Assembly (NCBI RefSeq): GCF_030704535.1
Contig: NC_081810.1
Location: 7,078,501 to 7,142,500 of the forward strand
Direction: 5' to 3'
DNA: 64,000 nt
Source of the DNA: Vitis vinifera
Taxonomy: Eukaryota; Streptophyta; Magnoliopsida; Vitales; Vitaceae
In this document: piece by piece, positions 13,028 through 48,959 of the stretch
Layout of the letters: each line of letters opens with the position of its first letter
Position numbering within the stretch: the stretch's first letter is position 1
The notes under the pieces: generated by a model
Told to the model about the DNA's origin: nothing
The model's database searches: none
What the model saw: the letters and a program-made list of their open reading frames with translations, nothing else
Translations under genes and position numbers: made by a program

Positions 13028-14229
13028 TCTCAGGAAATAAAGGCTAATTTTAATAGAGAAAAACATATAAGAGGGGGTGAATTGGGGTTTTTAAAAAAAA
13101 TCAAATACAATAAATTTAAGCACAAAAATCACAAATGTAAAGAGATAAAATTAGAGAAAGCAAACTCAATTTTTATAGTGATTCGACACTTCTTTACATT
13201 CATTCTTCTTAAGTTTCTAACAGAATGAGAGTAGTTCCACTATACTTGAAACTTCAACCAAGCTTCTAATTATCTTTACACTTGGATTTCGACTCCAATA
13301 AGCTCTTACACAATTCTCTTCAAGTCTCTACTCACTTGAAGGTTCTAACACTCAAATAAGAAGTTTAAAACTTTCAACCTATCTCAACAAAGGTTTAAAT
13401 ACAATTTAAATATTAGGAAGAATCACAAGAGTGCACTAAAGAATATGCAAACGGAGATTTAATGCACCAACAAAAAAATTAGAGTTTTTAAGGCAAGAAC
13501 AAGTAGGTAAACAAATAAATGTTGGTGTTCTCTTACTCACAAATGAAGTGGAGCTCTCAATTTATAGATTTTTAGCTTCAGGAGCCAAAATGTCAAAAAG
13601 ACAACCTCAACTAGTTGAGCTTGGGGTTGATCGGTTCACTAGCCGTTAGGCATTAAATGTCTGGTAGGTGATTGTTAAACCTCGACTGGGAATACATATT
13701 CCTCGACCGGGAAAGAAATGCTATTAGAAAAGAGAAAATGTTTGCATCTCTCAACCGAACCTCGACCAAGGAGGGTCAATCGGTCAACTGATGCCTTAAC
13801 CGGTTGAGCTGATTCATTAGTGCCTCGACTGGTTCACCATTTTTTGCTCGAAAACTTATCTTTTTCTGATCTCTTTGCTTCTAACACTTAGGCAAGGTCT
13901 TTAGGTAAATTAATATATCAATTTTGAAACAATTTGTCTAAGGTTCATTTGATAAAACTCAGGTTTAGATGAAAATGTTATTTTAATGCATAAACCGAGT
14001 TCTTAAAGATGTATGAAAAGATATGAAAATCCTAAGTGCACCCATGCATTCATCTTGCATATATTTCCTACGATTAAGGGTCTTCCAATTGTCTTGATCA
14101 TGCATCCATTGGGTTATTTGATAAATTTTCAAATTTATACATGAAATTCTTTATAATTCAAACCAATTAACAACTTAACCATGATTTGTTATCATCAAAA
14201 CGCGATTAGAAGAACTCTTTGACTAATAG
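13028..14229 (+). repeat. Direct repeat, copy 1 (~1.2 kb)
   Basis: This copy begins near GGAAATAAAGGCTAATTTTAATAGAGAAAAAC and ends near AACTCTTTGACTAATAG. It matches 14350-15512 in the same order throughout. Shared landmarks are AAGAGGGGGTGAA, AGTGATTCGACACTTC, a CTCGACTGGTT-rich centre, AGGCAAGGTCTTTAGGTAAAT, and CAAACCAATTA...AACCATGATTTG. No coding frame is conserved, so it looks like a non-autonomous repeat unit of unknown class. Confidence 0.75.
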
Positions 14230-14249
14230 CTTCTTTAATATAATTTAGT

Positions 14250-15868
14250 GGATATTTGATAAATTAACTTAATAACTTAAAGTGGCTTAATAACTTAATT
14301 TAAGTCATTAACTAAATTAATAATGTTTGGTAAAATAACTTAATGATATTGAGAAAATAAAGGTTAATCTTAAATGAGAAAAACACCCAAGAGGGGGGGG
14401 TGAAGCAACTAAATAGAGATAGAGTTAAAGAAATCAAATTTGGATTTTATAGTGGTTCGACACTTCCTTGCCTACATCCACTCTCCTCAAGCTCCTAACC
14501 GAGTGAGGGTTCTACTAACTTGAAGCTTCAACCAAGCTTCTAATCTCCTTTACATTTGAATTCTAACTCCAATGAGCTCTTACACAATCTCTTCAAAATT
14601 CAACTCATTTTAAGGTTTTAACACTCAATTTTACAAGAATGAATCCCTCAACCTAGCTCAATAATAGCTCAAATACAAATCAAAGTTAGGATGAATTACA
14701 AATGTGCACTAAAGGATATGCACGTGAAGATTTAATGCACCAAGAAATAAATGAGAGCTTTTAAGGCAACAACAAGTTGGTATACAAATAAATGCATATG
14801 TTCTATATCTCATAAATGAAGTGGGGCTCTCTATTTATAGGTTTCCAACATCAGGAGCCAATAAAATCAAAAAGCAGTCTCAACCAGTCGATCTGAGGGT
14901 CGACAGGTTCACTAGCCGTTGGAACATTTAATGTTTTAGCAGGTTACCGTTGTTTAGACCGGACCTCAATTAGAGGTTGACCAGGAAGAAAGATACCTCG
15001 ATCAGAAAGGAAAGGCTACTAGAAAAGAGGTGTTTTTTGCACTCCTTGACCAAGCAAAGGGAACCGGTCGACTGGTACCTTGGCTAGTTGAGCCGATTGG
15101 CCCAATGCCTCGACCGGTTCAACATTTTGGTCCCTAAAACCTATATTTTTATGTTCTTTTCTCTTCTAATACTTAAGCAAGGTCTTTAGGTAAATAAATA
15201 TGTCAATTTTGAAACATTTTACCTAAGGCACATTTGATAAAACTCGGGTTTTAATGAAATTGTAACTTTAAAGAATAAACCGAGTTTTCCAAAGATGCAT
15301 GAAATGATATGTGAAACCTAAGTGTACTCATGCATTCATCTTACATTTGTTTCCTATAATTAAAGGTCTTCCTAACGTATTGATCTTGTATCCATTAAGT
15401 CATTTGATGAATTTCCAAATTAATACATGAGATTCTTTACAATTCAAACCAATTAGTAACTTAACCACGATTTGTCATCATCAAAACCTTATTATGAGAA
15501 CCCTTGAGCTAACAGATATGACTTAAAGTAAAAAACAACTTTAAGTAATAAGTAAAAATAATTAATTTATTATTAAGTTCATATCTTCATTTTACCTTTT
15601 TACCCTCATTTACTTTAATTAACTCCACAATCTCTTTTGCTTTAATTAAGTCCACAATCTCTTTCACTTCTGCTATTCCACAACCTTGACACTCAACCTC
15701 CTTTACCCTAATTATAATTTGTGAAAATAAATATGTTAATTTGATAATTTAAAATAAATCTTAAGTTGATTTTTTCAAACAACCTTAACACAAAGTAAAA
15801 ATTAAGTATTAAGTTTTAAGGACAATTTAAATTGTTAAATAATAAATATTAAGTTTTATCAAACACCC
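14250..15868. mobile_element. Possible MITE split by repeat copy 2
   Basis: The left end GGATATTTGATAAATTAACTTAA (14250) and the right end, read on the minus strand as GGGGTGTTTGATAAAACTTAAT (from 15868), form imperfect inverted termini. Both flanks are rich in CTTAATAACTTAA words, whereas the intervening repeat copy is not. This suggests a short inverted-repeat element (about 450 bases) into which copy 2 was inserted. No clean target duplication was found. Confidence 0.4.
14350..15512 (+). repeat. Direct repeat, copy 2 (~1.16 kb)
   Basis: Second copy of the 13028-14229 unit, with a matching start (GAAAATAAAGGTTAATCTTAAATGAGAAAAAC) and end (CCCTTGAGCTAACAG). The copies differ by many point changes and small indels, so the duplication is old. 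Both share the GTGGTTCGACACTTCCTTGCC-like segment and the CGACCGGTT words. About 120 bases of unrelated AT-rich DNA separate them. Confidence 0.75.
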
Positions 15869-38345: not shown

Positions 38346-40949
38346 CTAGTAAGCTGAATCAAACAAACCCAAATTACAGTATCCCTCATCGCACGACTCA
38401 ACTGATTCTTCCTCCTTGGCAGCCTCAGCCGGGGCAGCACCAGAATCAGCAGCTGCAACTGGGGCCACAACAACCGCAAACTTGCTTGGATCCTGCAATT
38501 TGGTTGTTCAAACAATCATCTGGATATGGACACATTGTAAGGCAAGATAGAATTTTCAGGGCCATGCTCGACGCCAAGTACCTTTAGGTATTCCTTCACT
38601 TGCTGAGCCTGTGGGAAGGAATACTCTGCAACTACCGCAACAGTGAGGACATTGTTGCAGGCGTTAATGAACATATGGAGTGCAGCAGCAAGTGTAGGGT
38701 ATGAGATGGCCAGTGATAGAGAGGCTTTCATAGAGACCCCAGCAGAAAACTTCTCCGCCAAATCATCATCTGTGAGATCAAGCACCTTAGGGCTGAAGAC
38801 CGACCCATTGTCGGAAACAGACAAGACAACAAGACCATAAGAGAATGACTTCTTCCCCAACTTTGCAAGAAGGGCAGCTTCAGATGAACCCACTTTGTCA
38901 CCCTTCTTAACAAGCTGCACAGGGACAACTATCTCCACTGCACCCTTGTTGATCTTGGTTGGGATGTTAAGCACCTGAAAAAAAAAGGCAAAATTGTGAA
39001 GCTATAGGCCGAAAAGAAGCCGGAGGGGGTGAAGTATGAATGCAGACCTGAAAGAAGGAAGTGAGAGCAGGATCCAGTCCTGTGCTTCCAGGTTGAATAA
39101 CAACATCAATAGGAGCAACAACGCCAGCGCGAGCAGGAGCTCCCACCTGTTCATGGCGATAAGTAAATGCCAAAGCTAAAGATTACATATCAAACTACAC
39201 GCCAGAGATATCACTCTACACCATCAAATTTCCAGCCAGTTAATAAATGCAAACAAAATTACTAGTGAAGTACTATTTCAAAGTCTAAGGAAATTTTGTC
39301 CACTTAATTTAACATATAACCCACCTGAATTATGGATGATTTAAAGAAAAGGATAAGAAAGTGAGATTCACCATATTTACTAACCAGGCAAGAAAGAATA
39401 TCACAGCCAAGGTCTTTTTTTTTTTGGTAGCAGGTGTTGCTCCTGCCCTCTATCCTAAAGTTGACTGATTGTGGCTCTCTTCCCTCACAAACGTTTGGAG
39501 AATATAACTGGGTACATTGTTTCCATTTATCTTCCACCCATTAGACAGTATTTTTCCACATAAAATCTTTGAGCTTTTGCATGTCATGCTCTGAGTTTGG
39601 TTCCTATACGGTAGCCTGGTTCACCCATCATAACCCACAAAATCACCTGCCTATGTTTTGTTTTCCCATCAACAACATTGTTATGTTTGGTTCGAGAACG
39701 CGCCCATAAAAGAAAAAACTTGGAAGAAAGATGATTTTGCCATATTTTGGTTTTACCGTAACAAATATGAAAATAATTAAATATAATTAAAATTAGTTAA
39801 AAAATTAATACATTTTCATATTATTTAAATTTTATATAGAAAAGTTAAAATAAGTGAAGTTAGTTTTCAACTAATATATAAAAATAATTTATAGAACTTA
39901 ATTTTTTTTATATTTTATTTTGTTTTTTCTTTCCCTCTCATTCTTTTCTTAATTTTTTTTTTCAAAATCAAATATATCATAAGATATTGATAATTTAATT
40001 TGACATCTTCACTCTTACTTTCCACATTGAAATCTCTTAAATGAGGTGTAACTCTTGAACCCCATGTGTTTAAAAGACAAAACCTTTGTGAAGAGATTAA
40101 GTATCTATTTGGTAACTGTTTTTTAAAATAATTTTTTGTTCTCCAAAATAAAAAATTAGAAAAACATGTTCGACAATTAAAAACTGTTTTCTGTTCTTAA
40201 AAACAAAAAATATGATGTTTTCAGAAAATATCTTTTAGTTATTTTCTACTGTTTTAACTTATTTTTTAAAAGTTATTTTAAAAAGTAATTATTTATAATT
40301 TTCCCTTATACAAACGTGTAAATTGATTAAAATAAAACACTAAATATAAAAATTATTTAAAAAACATATTTAAAAATAGGTTAAAAACATCTTAAACTTC
40401 CTAACATATTTTTGTTTTACAAAACATCATAAAATGGTTTTTAAGGAATATTTTCCAAAACACTTATAAAAAAAGACACTAACTGTGGACCTCGCATTTT
40501 GGCTCATGCGTTTTCCACTTGATGACGAGCTCAATTTTTATTTGAAAAAATGATTTATTTATTAAAAGATGAATTGAAGTCGTCACTTATTTTCGTTTTA
40601 TTTTTAAAGGGTAAACAAAATAAGAAAGAAAACCCTAAGTGTAACTCCTTATTTGAAAAAGGTGGTCTGTGAAAAATCGGATTGGGTTCGGAAGTCAGGT
40701 TACTTATCGGGAAGGTACAGTAAAGACCATAGCACCCCCTTTAAGTCCCTAAAGTTGGGTCTCTACTAATAAAACGAAGCTGAATTAGCAATCAATGAGA
40801 AAAATCAACAAATACTCAAATCAATTATGCGCATATGAGAATCAAAACATGCATAGAGAATGACCAGAATGAGAGTGGATGCGTACCTGGGGTCAGTGTA
40901 CGATAAAGAGCACAAAACATATCACTTACATCACCAAACAGAAATTAAA

Positions 40950-42850
40950 ACTGTTCGAAGGAAAACTAGATTTTTGAAATTTATTTTGAAAATTGGAGTC
41001 TTAGAGATTATTTGAAAATTGGATTTTTAGAAATTAAATGTAAGAATGTGAATTTTAGAAATTAGAATTCTGAAAATTATTTGAGAGTTTGGGATTTTAA
41101 AAAAAATTAAATTACAAAAATTGAGACTTTGGAAATTAAATTTTGAAAGAAATCATAATTGAAATTTATTTGAGAAGTAGAAACTATGAAGATTGAATTA
41201 TAAAAATTGGAAATCTTGGAAATCATTCGAAGACAGAATTTTTAAAAATAAATGAATAAAATGATAATAATAATGATAATAATAAGTAAGTAATGGAATA
41301 AATGCGAGAATTAGAATATTAGGAATTGAAAATTAAGTTCGAAAATTGGAAAAGTGGAATTTCAGATAACTAAACTTGGAAATCAAAATTTTGAAGACTT
41401 ATTTAAAGACGAAATTTTAAGTAAATGAATAAGTGAATGAGATAATAATAATAGCGATAATAACCGTTAAACAAGTGAATGTGAATAGTGGAATATTCGA
41501 GATAGGGAATTAGATTTGGAAGTAACAACGAAAATAATACTTAAATGAATGAACGTGAAAAGTGAAAATTTTGAAATTGAAAATTAAATTCGGAAAACAG
41601 ACTTTTGAAGAATTGAACTTTGATGGTTGAAATTTTTAAAAGAAATAGACAAATAAGTATGGAATAGCAATAATAACAACAAAAATAATGTTTAAACGAG
41701 TGAATGTGAATAGTAAGATTCTTGAGATCGAAAATTGAATTCAAAAGTCGAATTTTTGAAGAATAGAACTTTGACGATTGAGATTTTTAAAAGAGATAAA
41801 CAGATAAATATGGAATAACGTTAATAATTAATTGAAAATGATATTTAAAAGAATGAAAGCGAATAATGGGACTTTTGAGATCGAAAATTAAATTCAGATT
41901 TTTAAAAGAAATAGATAAATAGGGAATAACGTTAATAATTAATCAAAAATGATATTTGAACGGATGAAAGTGAATAGTGAGATTTTTGAGATTGAAAATT
42001 AAATTTGAAAATCGGATTTTTGAAGAATTAGACTTTAATGATTGAGATTCTTAAAAGAAATAAATAGATAATTATGGAATAGTAATGATAATTAACAAAA
42101 ATAATATTTAAACGGATGAAAGTGAATAGTGGAATTTCTTTAGATTGAAGATTAAATTCGGAAGTCGGATTTTTTTTGAAGAGTTGAATTTTAATGACTG
42201 GAATTTTTAAAAGAAATGAATAAATAAATACGGAAGAATAATAATAATATACAAGATCTAAAATTAAATTCGAAATTGTGGGGCTTTCGGAAAATTAAAT
42301 TTAAAAATGCGAATCTTGGAGAATTAAAGTTAAAATTAGAACCTAATAAAATTATTTTGAAGATTGAACTTTGAAGAGTTAAATTTAAGGAATTGAGTTT
42401 CGAGAATTAGAGTCTGGCGAACTTAGTTTAGAATCGGGTTTTAGAAGATTTTTCGAAAATGACAATAATAATAATTCTTTTTTTTTTTTTGTTTTAGAAA
42501 AAAAAAAATACATGAATAAGTGAATAAATTTAGGACTTTAAAATTTTAGGGGATTTTTAAAGGAAATGAATAAATAAGTACGGAATATTAACGATAGTGA
42601 TGAAAAATAACAATTAAGCGACTGACTGTGAATAGCAAAATTTTAGAGATTGGAAATTTGAAGAAATATTTAGAAATGGATTTTTTTTTTTTGAAATAAG
42701 CAAGTGAATTAATAATAATAATAATAATGAAAATAGCGACGATTAAGTAAATGCGGAAATTTGGGATTTTGGAAATTGAGACATTGAATTTAGAGTTTAA
42801 AAAAAAAAATTGATGGTGAAAAGAATCGTGAACTTGAATTATTTAGAAGC
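40950..42850. repeat. Degenerate purine-rich repeat array in the 8 kb element
   Basis: The roughly 130-base motif GAAAATTGAATTCGAAA..TTGAAGAATTGAACTTTGATGATTGAAATTTTTAAAAGAAATAAATAAGTATGGAATA recurs at least five times (near 41550, 41700, 41860, 41960, 42100 and 42540) with drift. It is non-coding and probably arose by tandem amplification inside the element. Confidence 0.7.
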
Positions 42851-43136
42851 CGAATTTTCAATAATCAACTTTTAAAATTCGTGGGCTTTGAAGATGGGCC
42901 AAGAAGGGTGGCCATGCAAGCTAGACCGGCCCTGAGGCAGCATATCAGAACGAAAAGGCCACCATTAATGTAAGATTCGCGACTTATCCACATCAGTTTT
43001 CCTTCATTTGGAGTGGCCCATGGCTGAAGGCCCATTGCTTGCCTGAGAAGCTCAACGTGGCCCATGCTACCTCAATATTCAAACATTCAAAGAATGCACT
43101 CCCCTCTACAAGCCCAGTACAACGTCTAGAAACTCA

Positions 43137-44304
43137 GGGCCTGTTTGTTTAGTGTTTTCAAGAACTGTTTTCTGTTCTTGAAAACAAAAAACACCAAAAA
43201 CTCTTTTGGTTGCGAGAGTCGTTTTTGTTTTTGTTGTTCCCCGTGTTCTCAAAATGGCACTGTTTAGAGAACAACAAAATGTTGTTTTCCCCGTTTTTTT
43301 ACTGTTTACAGAACAAAATTAAACAACAAAAAAACCATCTGTTCTCTGTGTTTTTTTTTTCTTCCCGTTCTCATCTCTTCTCCAGCACAGTCGCGTCGCC
43401 TCTTCTTGATTTTTCCCGTTTCTCAGTTTTGATTCAGGGTTCGTGAAATTTAAATCAAATGGCACAATAGGAAAGAGACCCTTAAAACGGATCCAGAAAA
43501 CACAGGGAGCAAAAGAAAAACAATTTTTTTTTTATTTTCCTTGGGGGTTTTGCATGGATTTTCTTGGAAATCAAACGGGGATGAATTTTCCCGGAAATTG
43601 AATGGGGCATGGATTTTCTTGGGAATCAAACGGAGGTTGAAAAAAAATAATAATAACATGATTAGATTAGTACCTGCAAGGATTGAGAGTGGCAGAGTGA
43701 GAGAAGGGTTTTTTTAGGAATTTTCCCGACTGGAGGGCAACTTCAGAAAAGGGCTTCTTGATGCCCGAGTGAGAGAAGTGGGTGGCATTTTGAATTTTAG
43801 ATTTAGTAGAGATAAAAAAAAATTAACAAATCACGAGAACAATTTTATCTCAACTTAATAGAATATGCTATAATTTTTAATAAAGTTAAAGATTAAATAA
43901 AAAAATATTAATAAAAATGATTTTATTATGTTTGATTTATTTTTTAAAAATATAAAAAATATTTTTATTTTTAAATTAATAAAATAAATGTTTTTTTTAA
44001 TTTAAATGAACTATATATCTAAAAATTATTTATAAATTTATAATATAAAATTACTTGAAGAAAATATTTTATTAATTAGAAAAGAAAAAAAACATCTTTC
44101 AAACGTGTTTTTTGTTTTATTTGTTCTATTTTTTTTATTAACTCAACCAAACATGTTTTTTTTGTTTTTGAGAACAAAAATTGTTTTTCAAAATTCAATT
44201 CCTAAACACATTTTTTTTTTAAAAACACCAAAAACTGTTCTTAAAAACTGTTCTCAAAAACGGTTTTCCAGAACAGTTTTCAAAATCAGCAACCAAACAT
44301 GCCC
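43137..44304. mobile_element. MITE-like insertion (~1.17 kb) nested in the 8 kb element
   Basis: It starts GGGCCTGTTTGTTTAGTG (43137) and ends CAACCAAACATGCCC (44304), which reads GGGCATGTTTGGTTGC on the other strand. Subterminal GTTTTC/GAAAAC words (AACTGTTTTCTGTTCTTGAAAAC near the left, AACTGTTCTCAAAAACGG near the right) extend the inverted arrangement. This is the GGGCCTGTTTGG-end type of plant hAT MITEs. No clear 8-bp target duplication was seen, and no transposase. Confidence 0.55.
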
Positions 44305-44404
44305 TCGAATTCAAATATTCAGATTTTTCAAAATCCATTTAACACATCCTGCAGTCCATGCCTGCGTGCCCATTCCTACCTCAAACTTCCCACTTTCTGA
44401 TCCC

Positions 44405-44830
44405 TTTGAGCATTCCCTAGAGCTCACTGAACATTGCTCTAACTCTTCACCTCCGAGCCACCCTATCTCCGGCCGCAGGAACTTCCTTCCGGTTGATGGA
44501 CTTCAGCACTGGCACCACTCACGGTCGCTTCTTCTCGAAAAGATTCCGGTGAAGAGCCTTCCGAGTTGCCGAAACACCCTTCGTCCTCTTCTCTTTCACA
44601 TAAAGTCCGCTCAATGGAGCCAAGAAATGGACTCTTCCATCGTCAGAGTTGGCGTCGACATCGAGGGGACCAGACAGAGTGCCTCGCTCGAGCGGACCGG
44701 ACATAAAGAGGCTGCAATCAATCGGACCGGAAACTTCACCGCCCTTGGGCATCGGCTGTAGCGGCAGAGCACTAAACGACGCCGTGCTCTCGAAATGGTC
44801 TTGAACCCGGTCTCCGGCGGACCAGCCCGC
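44405..44830 (-). pseudogene. Captured PP2C fragment, POLTERGEIST-like (PLL) family
   Basis: On the minus strand the N-terminal signature of PLL-type protein phosphatase 2C is readable in order: ETGFKTIS (about 44797-44815), FESTASFSALPLQPMPKGG, MSGPLERG (44680-44703), SGPLDV (44657-44674), FLAPLSGLYVKEKR, RKALHRNLFEKKRP, then VVPVLKSINRKEVPAA. The stretch continues as SNVQ and ALGNAQRD, matching the start of the catalytic region (SNVQWALGKAGEDR in the family). Damage is clear: TGA in place of the Trp codon at 44521-44519, at least two further stops near 44425-44440, and a deletion or frame change between FKTIS and FEST. The conserved domain after this point is absent. It lies inside the TSD-bounded 8 kb element, antisense to + strand. 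Confidence 0.8.
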
Positions 44831-47800
44831 GACCCCGCTGTTTGGTTTGCAAGAAAAGAAAAGAACCCAAAGCAGTTTTCCAGCAAGAGAAAGTATAGTA
44901 GAGATAGAGAGAGAGAGGGAGAGAAGTGGGTTTGAAGAAGGACGTGGATATGGGTAAGATGTGGCCATGCATGACCATGCTAAGGCGGGAAGGCTCGGGG
45001 TGCATGGAGTGGTGTAGAGAGAGAAAGGTAGAGGTGGGTATGTGAGGGTGATGGTCATGCATGGAACGTGAAATGGTGATGAAATGGAGCAGGTTTGAGG
45101 GATTCAGTGAGCATGAGGCAGGACGAATGATGCATGGCGCTGGATATATTGGAGAGTGACAGTGCGGGTATTAGGGGTGGATGATGAGCATGGTAATAGT
45201 CATGAGGAGGTGGGTGAATCTGAGGGCATCTCACAACAATGAAGACAGAGCAAGACTCCTGCGTGATAGATGGTGAGGCTAAAATAGAGCTTCATTGCTC
45301 TCAAAACAACCCAAAGATGTGAAAGAGATAGCAGTAATCAACCCATAAGTCAAACATGAACCATGAAACTAAACATATGAATCTATGATCAGATAATCCA
45401 CCGGAACTGTTAAGACAAAAATAAGGAGATTATATACATAAAGTAAGTCCAGAGATCCATGGTAACCGTACCTCTCCCTTCTCCTCTTTTGAGCTCATTT
45501 TTCTCTCTGGATCCTCCCACCCTACTTCTTGAAAAACCTCCCCCTATCCCTCTGCAAAAACTCCTCTTGTCGCGGCTTTCTCCCCAACCCCCAGAAAACC
45601 TCCCCCTGTGACCTCAAAAACCTCTCAACCTCAAACCCTCCTATCACAGCTATCACCCACTCTCCTGTTTCTCGATCAGTAAGCATGGCCTCTCAACAAC
45701 CAACATGGCCATCCATGCTCGAAAAGGGTCCCCTACTAAAAAAAAGAAAGGCTTCCCATGCAATGATGGGGTATTTTATGCCACGTTAGCATTTTTAGTT
45801 TGAAAAATCTTATTTGGTGTGATGGCTGAAAAGTAAAAAAAAAAAGTGTTTGGAGAACACGTGTCAATTTTGGATTTGTGAATTTCTTTTTATTGTGTCG
45901 GTCAATTAAACGAGTTGAAATTTTATGTCATGTCAGCCTTAGGGTAGAAAATTTCTTAGGATTTTAGAAATTGAAATTTTCCGGGAAAAAAAAAAAGAAT
46001 TAATTTAAAAAAAATTAATTAGAATTAATTAAGAAAAATTAAATTAAATTGATGAATAATAAAATTGAGAAAAATTAGTTTTAGATTGGTGTTAATAAAT
46101 AAATTATGTGTAAAAGAAAATGATGAAAAAAAAATGAATTGAAAATCAAATAAAACAATTAGAATAAACAAAAGAAAATAAAATAAAAGAAATAAAATAA
46201 AAATATTCATTGGGCTTTGAATATTGGCCGTTTAAGATAATGGATTGTTAAAAAAAAAGGAATTGAGTTGGGCTTGGATATGGGCTTAAGTCGCTGGTGG
46301 CTTTTAAAAGCCATGTGAAGTGGGCTGTTAAAAAAAAAAAAAAAAAAAGGGAAAACGGGGGAGAATTGGAAAACTACAGCACGCGTGGAAGAGAGAGAGA
46401 AAGGCTACTGTGCATAAATTAGGGCACTTACCGGATCTTTGACTGGCCGTTTGACGGCCAAATGATCTCCGTTTCAGCCTAAATTCGAAGGAAGTACTCT
46501 ATTCGACTAGAGAAACAAGTCTACGATGACTGATTTCGTTTTTAACAACCAAATTCTCAGATTTGTGGTAGGGGAAAACTAACCCTAAAACTCAAATTTA
46601 ATGTATTTTTCATTGGAAAAAAATTATAAATTTGATAATTATGAGTTAAGTAGGTAATTGTGATGTTGTGTGAATTTTCTGGAATGATTTGAGATTTTTT
46701 CTGGATTTTTTTGTAATTTCCGGAATTCTTTGTAATTGATAAATAACTATTTTAGGTTGTTAAAAATTGTTAGAAATGTAGGAAAATTCCGGAATTAGGG
46801 CAAGATTTCAAATCTAGTGATTTATGAATTTTTGAAAATTGATTGGAATATTTGCGGTAATTTTATTGTGAAAAATTAGTTATTTTCAAATATTAGAAAT
46901 TATTAGAATTATTGAAAAATTCTGAAAATGTGATATAAATTCAAGTATATTGATGTGTGAATTTTTGAAAATTCGTTGGTATATTTTCGGGAATTTTAAT
47001 GTGAAAATTTTATTTTATTTGGTTATTGAGAATGTTGAAATTATTGGAATTGTAGAAATTATTGAGGAATTTTGGAATTTGTGGCATTCATTTGCATCAT
47101 GGTTGTAAAAAAAAAAAAAGGGATTTGTGAAAAGTGCATGAAATGGAAAAAAAAATAAAATAGTGATGAAAAGTGAAAGCCCGTGTGAGGCAAATTAAGA
47201 AGGGAGAAAGATCCCTAGGGTGAAAGACCTAAAAGTTTACCTCGAGAAGACTCCAAATGGGGAGTATATTTGGGTGCGGACGCGTATCATTCAGTGAAAG
47301 CCCGAGAACGATAGTGCATTGTATGATTGTGTGTCACACGTTCATATGCATTCATTTAATGATTGGATGTTGTGGGATTGAGTATAATGTTATATGTTAA
47401 ATTGTGTGACTTGATTTATATTGGTAAACTGTTGTGTTTGAGTTATTGAAATATAGTAATCTCCCAGTAACCCTTTGGGTGTTAGGCACTCTACTGAGCA
47501 ATGTGGAAATGCTCACCCCTTCATTTTTATATCTTTTTAGATGCAAATATCACTCCTGAGGATCCACAGATGGGACAGGGAGGACTTCAAGATGCCCCTG
47601 GAGTGGTTTAGTGAAAAGGTTTTATTTTTTTATTGTGTTTGTGGCATTGAGACCTTGTAATAAGTGAATTATAGATAATGTAATAAGACTTTAGTTTGAT
47701 TAAGGGGATTTTTATGAAACTTTATTTTGGGATGCAATGATGTTTATTAAATCTTGATATGTTTGAGTAAGGTTTTAAAATATTGTTAGTTGGTGAGAAC

Positions 47801-47938
47801 CCTAGTGAGACTTATATGTGAAAAAAAAAAAATTAGAGTGTTTTAGTTGACTGCCAATGTGGAATAGGAGAAACCCTTAGGGTCAAACCTTTAACTTGGG
47901 ATCACGTGCCAAATTTTGGGTCGCCCGGAATTTGGGTC

Positions 47939-48482
47939 ATGACATCTAGGGATGGCAACCGGGCAGGTTTTTTCGGGTACCCGCCCCGCCCCGCCCCGCC
48001 CCTAATGGGACAGGGTTGAAATTTAATAAACGGGTTTTTAACGGGTATGAGATTTTTTTTTAAACCCGGGGCGGGTTCGGGTATTGCCCTATCCCGGCCC
48101 GGCTCGGCCCGCCCCGTTTACATATAAAATCAATTTTAAAATTTAATTTAATTTAAAATTTAAAATTAATTTTATTTTACTATTTTTAATATATAGATAA
48201 TAATAAAAAAATTAATAAAATAAGTTATAAAAAAATATAATAATTTTATTATTTATAAATATATTTATTTTAATGTAATTAAAAATTTTAAAAGTAAATT
48301 TTTTTTTTTTAAAAAAAGGAGGCTAAACGGGGCGGGGCGGGTTTGGGAATTTCCTATACCCGCCCCGCCCCGTTTAATTTTTTAAATGGGACGGGGATGT
48401 GAATTATTTTTAATAAACGGGGTGGGGTTGGGATGGGGGCGACCCGTCCCGAACCCGGCCCGTTGCCATTCCTAGTGACATC
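47939..48482. mobile_element. hAT-like MITE (528 bp) nested in the 8 kb element
   Basis: Element 47947-48474 begins TAGGGATGGCAACCGGGC and ends GTTGCCATTCCTA. Flanking 8-mers ATGACATC (47939-47946) and GTGACATC (48475-48482) match at 7 of 8, the expected hAT target size. Long GC-rich subterminal inverted blocks (CCCCGCCCCGCCCCGCC and GGGGCGGGGCGGG) surround an AT-rich centre. The centre is shared with the element at 22236-22642. Confidence 0.8.
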
Positions 48483-48959
48483 CCCTTTCCCGGGTGGTCC
48501 CAAAACCTAAGGAAAAAATTATCATTTCCTTTGGTTTTTCAAGGGGTCTACACTAACAAACTTGCCAGAAGGGAAAAAAAAGGAAAAACGAGCCAAATAA
48601 GCACATAATGAATAAGGATGGAGACAGTACGATTCAATAGATAGAAAGCAAATAAACAAAAACAAAGAAAATTAATGAAATATTATCACAGAGCATACGA
48701 GAGTTGAGAATATTAAAATACAAACAGTAATCGTATATTACCAACGGGGTTTTGTATGATCATGAAGTTCTGAATACGTTCAAAGCTAAAATATTCAGCC
48801 TCACAGCAGCACCCATAGCCATACCTTGTACTTGGCAACCTCGTCACTCACTCCCTTCAAATCTCCCTTTGTGAATATCAGCCCAACGTTTCCCTATTTC
48901 AACAACACCCAATATGAAAATCAGTAAAAAAAAAAAAAAAAGAGAACAAAAAAATTCCG

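Follow-up and report, generated by a model that had tools for sequence, protein, structure and literature searches.

A degenerate piece of a PLL-type PP2C gene within a probable solo LTR of grapevine, and a candidate route of host mRNA pieces into LTRs

The host gene pieces of Bs1, an LTR retroelement of maize, reportedly sit in the element body. A published account describes for Bs1 a chimeric reading frame with host gene pieces, and for BARE-2 a Wis-2 sequence in the BARE-1 LTR that was ascribed to template switching (PMC13317346). Gene-carrying TRIMs such as GmaRetroS15 of soybean are described as having exon-only pieces, a 5-bp target site duplication (TSD) and three genes in one element (PMC4717578). 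A survey of maize lists 425 intact LTR retrotransposons with gene fragments, which stem from at least 189 captures (PMC2774510).

Our window is the whole stretch of 64,000 nucleotides of Vitis vinifera DNA that was analysed (C6:7078501-7142500), and the searched genome comprised 495,616,077 bases in 21 contigs. The peptides ETGFKTIS, ASFSALPLQP, MSGPLERG, SGPLDV and SNVQ*ALG, which the initial annotation had assigned to PLL proteins, are present on the minus strand at 44405-44830, distributed over three frames with stops. A comparison of this segment with the donor peptide gave a best six-frame local score of 431, and the maximum among 500 base shuffles was 66. The PLL match is thus located where it had been placed, but the extent given for it was too short, as the match continues to 44924. 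Elsewhere in the window, there are ordinary plant domains in five ORFs (MYB, TPR, L10P insertion domain, chorismate-binding enzyme and PH). Direct repeats at 13244-15286, with a spacing of about 1.28 kb and 79-86% identity, are perhaps the result of local duplication.

A genome DNA search with 44300-44950 yielded nine match rows: the window itself, one on C19 (92%, query positions 5-651), three on C2, two at C3:15.168 Mb, and one each at C10:12.247 Mb and C10:16.510 Mb. Those on C2 all fall in a single gene, whose frame stays open for 627 codons between the ATG and the first stop. The proposal that a transposon had captured a piece of a PLL-type gene is supported by this intact donor and by the presence of the fragment in further copies of the element on C19 and C3, so that the checks named for refuting it did not do so. 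In the donor, the PP2C domain was detected by Pfam in the exon 1 frame (E 3.2e-4) and in an open stretch downstream that represents a later exon (E 1.7e-9). A PDB search with the donor exon found no phosphatase; its two weak matches were mitochondrial ribosomal proteins. The N-terminus carries six S..L/I sites, including SGPI152, SGPI162 and SGPL171. From these sites, we take the donor to be a probable PLL (clade C PP2C). SXXL/I phosphosites have been reported for PLL N-termini (PMC12283378).

Judged by alignment, window positions 44410-44924 on the minus strand are a degenerate copy of the 5' UTR and part of exon 1 of the C2 PP2C gene. The following parts can be distinguished:

44410..44794, minus strand: captured PLL block A, exon 1 coding, 88.9% to C2
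44786..44834, minus strand: captured PLL block B, exon 1 coding, carries ETGFKTIS, 93.9% to C2
44837..44924, minus strand: captured PLL block C, taken as 5' UTR because it matches the donor ahead of its start codon, 94.3% to C2
44410..44417, minus strand: inner capture junction, GGGAAGGC common to the donor and an unfilled relative; the window reads GGGAATGC

Relative to the donor, the window fragment shows deletions of 243 and 121 bases and a 1-base gap. The 243-base gap takes out the start codon and is common to the window, C19 and C3 copies. The second gap measures 121 bases in the window and C19 and 120 bases in C3, with TTCG at both edges, and the C3 copy has lost 295 bases more relative to the donor. 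Three stop triplets of the window lie opposite donor codons 222 (W), 249 (E) and 254 (W); those opposite 222 and 254 are also found in C19, and that opposite 254 also in C3. The window differs from the donor at 52 of 510 sites and the C19 copy at 59 of 511, with 37 differences in 510 sites between the two copies and 35 differences from the donor common to both. Since the same two deletions occur in the window, C19 and C3 copies, both the capture of the PLL piece and its breakage predate the separation of these copies and the spread of the LTR. Splicing was considered as the source of the two gaps and rejected, as the gap borders do not carry GT...AG. The peptide of the window fragment matched no Pfam family at E<=1, which is expected because the captured part precedes the PP2C domain. 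With the start codon lost, the frames broken, three stops and no catalytic part, the fragment lacks what a functional PLL gene has and, judged by its reading frames, cannot encode a PLL protein.

The fragment lies in an element at 40484-48552 for which the initial annotation had recorded CTAAC on both sides and no pol genes. CTAAC is confirmed at both places, and no pol gene was seen in the ORF list for this interval. The element is best read as a minus-strand solo LTR (TGTAGACCCC ... GGTCCACA) of a Ty3-type retrotransposon family, enlarged by nested insertions, and not as a complete element from which pol was lost:

40479..40483: target site duplication CTAAC, left
40943..42800: AT-rich, internally repeated LTR part, also in relatives
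43137..44303: nested element, short inverted ends GGGCCTGTTTGTTT / GGCATGTTTGGTTG; the C19 copy lacks it at the equivalent place
45757..47946: stretch of 2.2 kb without counterpart in the C19 copy
47947..48474: nested element, inverted ends TAGGGATGGCAAC, flanks of 8 bases ATGACATC / GTGACATC
48553..48557: target site duplication CTAAC, right

The ends of the element are TGTGGACC and GGGGTCTACA, and it thus has both the TG...CA ends and the 5-bp TSD of a solo LTR. In relatives, the same unit occurs as paired LTRs with a primer binding site alongside, which together with the TSD supports the reading of the window unit as a solo LTR. Around 45757-47946 no flanking duplication was found. Because the solo LTR lies on the minus strand, the PLL fragment, also on the minus strand, is sense, not antisense, to the retroelement. 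Pack-MULEs have long inverted ends and a 9-bp TSD, and Helitrons have no TSD and a hairpin 3' end. Capture by a DNA transposon, Pack-MULE or Helitron is rejected because of the TG...CA ends and the 5-bp TSD, and also because of the absence of introns from one capture described below. A 5-bp TSD is given for 93.4% of plant LTR retrotransposons in a published analysis (PMC6317226).

A 917-base query from the left end of the element produced at least 52 match rows in the genome with 40 of 3942 candidates scored, which indicates that the LTR family is large. The flanks of the C19 copy are unrelated to those of the window element, and CTAAC is again found on both sides. That the window and the C19 copy (L010:5847-5851) share this 5-base duplication may reflect chance or a target preference. 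The C3 copy is flanked by CAGAG on both sides and a further C19 unit by GTTAC, and each unit is about 4 kb long. The sequence CCCCAGYGGAGTCGCCA is located three bases before TGTGGACC in L020 and L025, occurs in diverged forms in L023 and L052, and has a related form preceding the GGTGGACC end in L027. It is read as the putative primer binding site (PBS) of the minus strand, and we presume that it matches tRNA-Arg. A two-LTR element was found at C13:11158544-11191187, with GACAA on both outer flanks, the PBS beside the right LTR, and LTRs that share 94.5% identity across their first 2147 columns. In this one element examined, a polypurine tract was not apparent next to the 3' LTR. At C13:14.49-14.51 Mb, the LTR copies of another pair, one of them 2.17 kb long, match 91% and 94% in two blocks, and the outer flanks (GTCAT vs GTCGT) differ by one mismatch. 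Three peptides were examined from the minus strand of the internal stretch that separates two LTR copies at C10:16.5 Mb. One matched RNase H of reverse transcriptase (E 6.5e-16), whereas an RT-like peptide matched nothing in Pfam at E<=0.01. The Ogre/Tat clade of Ty3 is recognised by RT phylogeny, an extra RNase H and the type of PBS; the observations here that bear on it are this RNase H match and the putative tRNA-Arg PBS. The LTR copies at C10:16.5 Mb (L016, L027 and L059) were also considered as one clean element, which was rejected because they match over only 355 bases.

To look at further captures, 20 variable regions of relatives were translated (L045-L058, L033, L034 and four named copies, with L033 partly masked). 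Gene-like regions were chosen for follow-up, and the sample is therefore selected, not random. Genome searches with three gene-like variable regions besides that of the window identified a host gene in all three cases. Pfam searches with ten peptides gave one match above the cut-off (GRAS), two below it (DUF5473, 0.072; DUF620, 0.015) and none for the other seven. The GRAS piece was recognised in the L047 peptide (E 2.6e-9). Its donor is at C3:19786224-19786434 (88% over 211 bases), a locus that is itself GRAS (E 2.7e-27). In the search with L034, 21 of 41 match rows fell at C18:18.88-19.91 Mb. This region (L034-L044, L047) is a local LTR array that carries the GRAS piece and was probably multiplied by local duplication. 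Beside the GRAS piece, L034:2065-2213 is a second stretch that also occurs in L056 and is 79% identical to C5:6897174-6897321 (L070), which could be a gene or a repeat.

With L014, an LTR on C10, the genome search gave just two rows, one for L014 and one for a C4 gene (91%, 541 columns) with DUF761 (1.9e-17) and DUF4408 (4.2e-14). The DUF761 piece of L014 is followed directly by 34 bases of PLL, 33 of them identical to the donor, and these by the LTR. As the DUF761 piece adjoins a PLL remnant here, two host genes meet in one LTR. The search with L028 on C13 gave 22 match rows. Blocks of 70, 36 and 64 bases of a C18 locus are contiguous in the L028 LTR copy, and the two introns of this donor, with GT and AG borders, are both absent from the captured piece. 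The C18-derived piece is present in both LTRs of the C13:11158544-11191187 element, and from its exon structure this capture looks copied from spliced messenger RNA. The captured gene may resemble a KIN-4 kinesin, but Pfam and PDB gave no match and the name was not adopted. In each of the four captures identified, the host piece has the sense orientation of the retroelement. Several variable regions, such as L052, L053 and C10b, had no gene-like content and are repeat arrays, so that host pieces cannot be attributed to every family member. A peptide from L010:2149-2848, in the other C19 LTR, had the sub-cut-off DUF620 match (E 0.015) and is perhaps a fifth captured gene. The variable region of L057 contains a frame that we take to resemble Copia RNase H, probably from a nested element.

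The LTR captures, including the PLL piece, probably arose when reverse transcriptase switched template to packaged host mRNA. This is the simplest account because of the sense orientation, the intron loss in one case and the presence of a piece in both LTRs. According to this model, a Ty3-type family with long, variable LTRs would gain host mRNA pieces inside the LTR while it is reverse transcribed. For the PLL piece, which spans one exon, we infer an RNA source and the following order of template switches. Reverse transcriptase on the LTR RNA would switch at GGGAAGGC to PLL mRNA, copy part of exon 1 and the 5' UTR while skipping two stretches, and return to the LTR RNA in a CT-rich stretch. 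The PLL piece would then spread with the LTRs, as LTR sequence is doubled in every replication round. In the window, we infer that LTR-LTR recombination reduced the insertion to a solo LTR, which would later have been struck by nested elements. At the inner PLL end, the unfilled state, read from one diverged relative (L016), is GGTGAGGGGAAGGCCTAAGGGGATCAG, the donor has CTTTAGGGAAGGCGGGG and the L014 copy has CTTTAGGGAAGGCTCAAAGGGATTAG; the eight shared bases are GGGAAGGC. The other end of the PLL capture is located in CT repeats.

Such short junction identities would also fit end joining, and the main rival is that a double-strand break in a resident LTR copy was patched with host cDNA and the LTR copy then amplified, which would be a repair event and not a replication error. 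Repair by captured reverse-transcribed spliced mRNA has been reported in mouse zygotes (PMC4516963). However, a separate event would be needed for each of the four genes, with sense orientation each time (4/4), and the patched LTR would have to re-enter both LTRs of a mobile element, as on C13. We therefore consider break repair unlikely. The absence of an exon junction from the PLL piece would be consistent with a piece taken at the DNA level from the gene itself. This appears quite improbable, given that the sister capture on C13 has lost two introns exactly and that the PLL piece, which is in sense orientation, starts downstream of, and not in, the visible upstream gene DNA. A local pseudogene or remnant of a resident PLL gene, reached by the element by chance, would explain the degenerate fragment but is contradicted by the C19 and C3 copies, where the broken fragment recurs, both deletions included, in the same LTR between other flanks, and we give it almost no credence.

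Returning to template switching, the placement of a host mRNA capture in the LTR puts it in the promoter-bearing part that is doubled at each replication. Junctions with identified donors, together with several copies of one event, make template switching in plant retroelements accessible to study from sequence. The PLL piece itself is most likely a non-coding passenger. It has 41 exact 21-mers in common with the donor and an uninterrupted identity of at most 35 bases, and on this basis small-RNA cross-targeting of the donor is possible at most. We put forward tentatively that the LTR may act as a capture slot, into which host mRNAs would be copied repeatedly, in sense orientation and at short shared motifs (GGGAAGGC for PLL), with newer pieces replacing older ones in layers, so that the family would carry host mRNA pieces as a library that changes with time. 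A real slot would help to explain LTRs that reach 4 kb and more, and it could be tested whether small RNAs against donor genes are raised by the captured sense pieces. Through such small RNAs, the library could act back on genes of signalling and development, the PLL and GRAS donors among them.

In a limited literature search (LTR capture, grapevine), with most subscription journals outside its scope, no description of host-gene pieces inside LTRs was found. Like Bs1, the grapevine family carries pieces of several host genes in an LTR retroelement. Unlike Bs1, with its pieces in the element body and its chimeric reading frame, the grapevine pieces are in the LTR and the PLL piece is broken. 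In the C13 element, the captured piece lies inside the LTRs and not, as in elements of the Bs1 or TRIM kind, in the internal region. With TRIMs the family shares the 5-bp TSD and, in the C13 capture, a host piece without introns; the captures of TRIMs are described from the internal regions of 1.2-1.4 kb elements (PMC4717578), whereas those of grapevine lie within LTRs that measure about 4 kb or more. The foreign sequence inside an LTR resembles BARE-2, where the donor is another retroelement, whereas the grapevine donors are several host genes. In the maize survey, no element contains pieces of more than one standard nuclear gene (PMC2774510), whereas the C10 LTR has DUF761 and PLL pieces. 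Exon-only gene capture by LTR retroelements is already known, as is the gain of retroelement sequence by an LTR through template switching. The grapevine family differs from the known cases in that the host pieces are inside the LTR itself, come from four genes and are layered.
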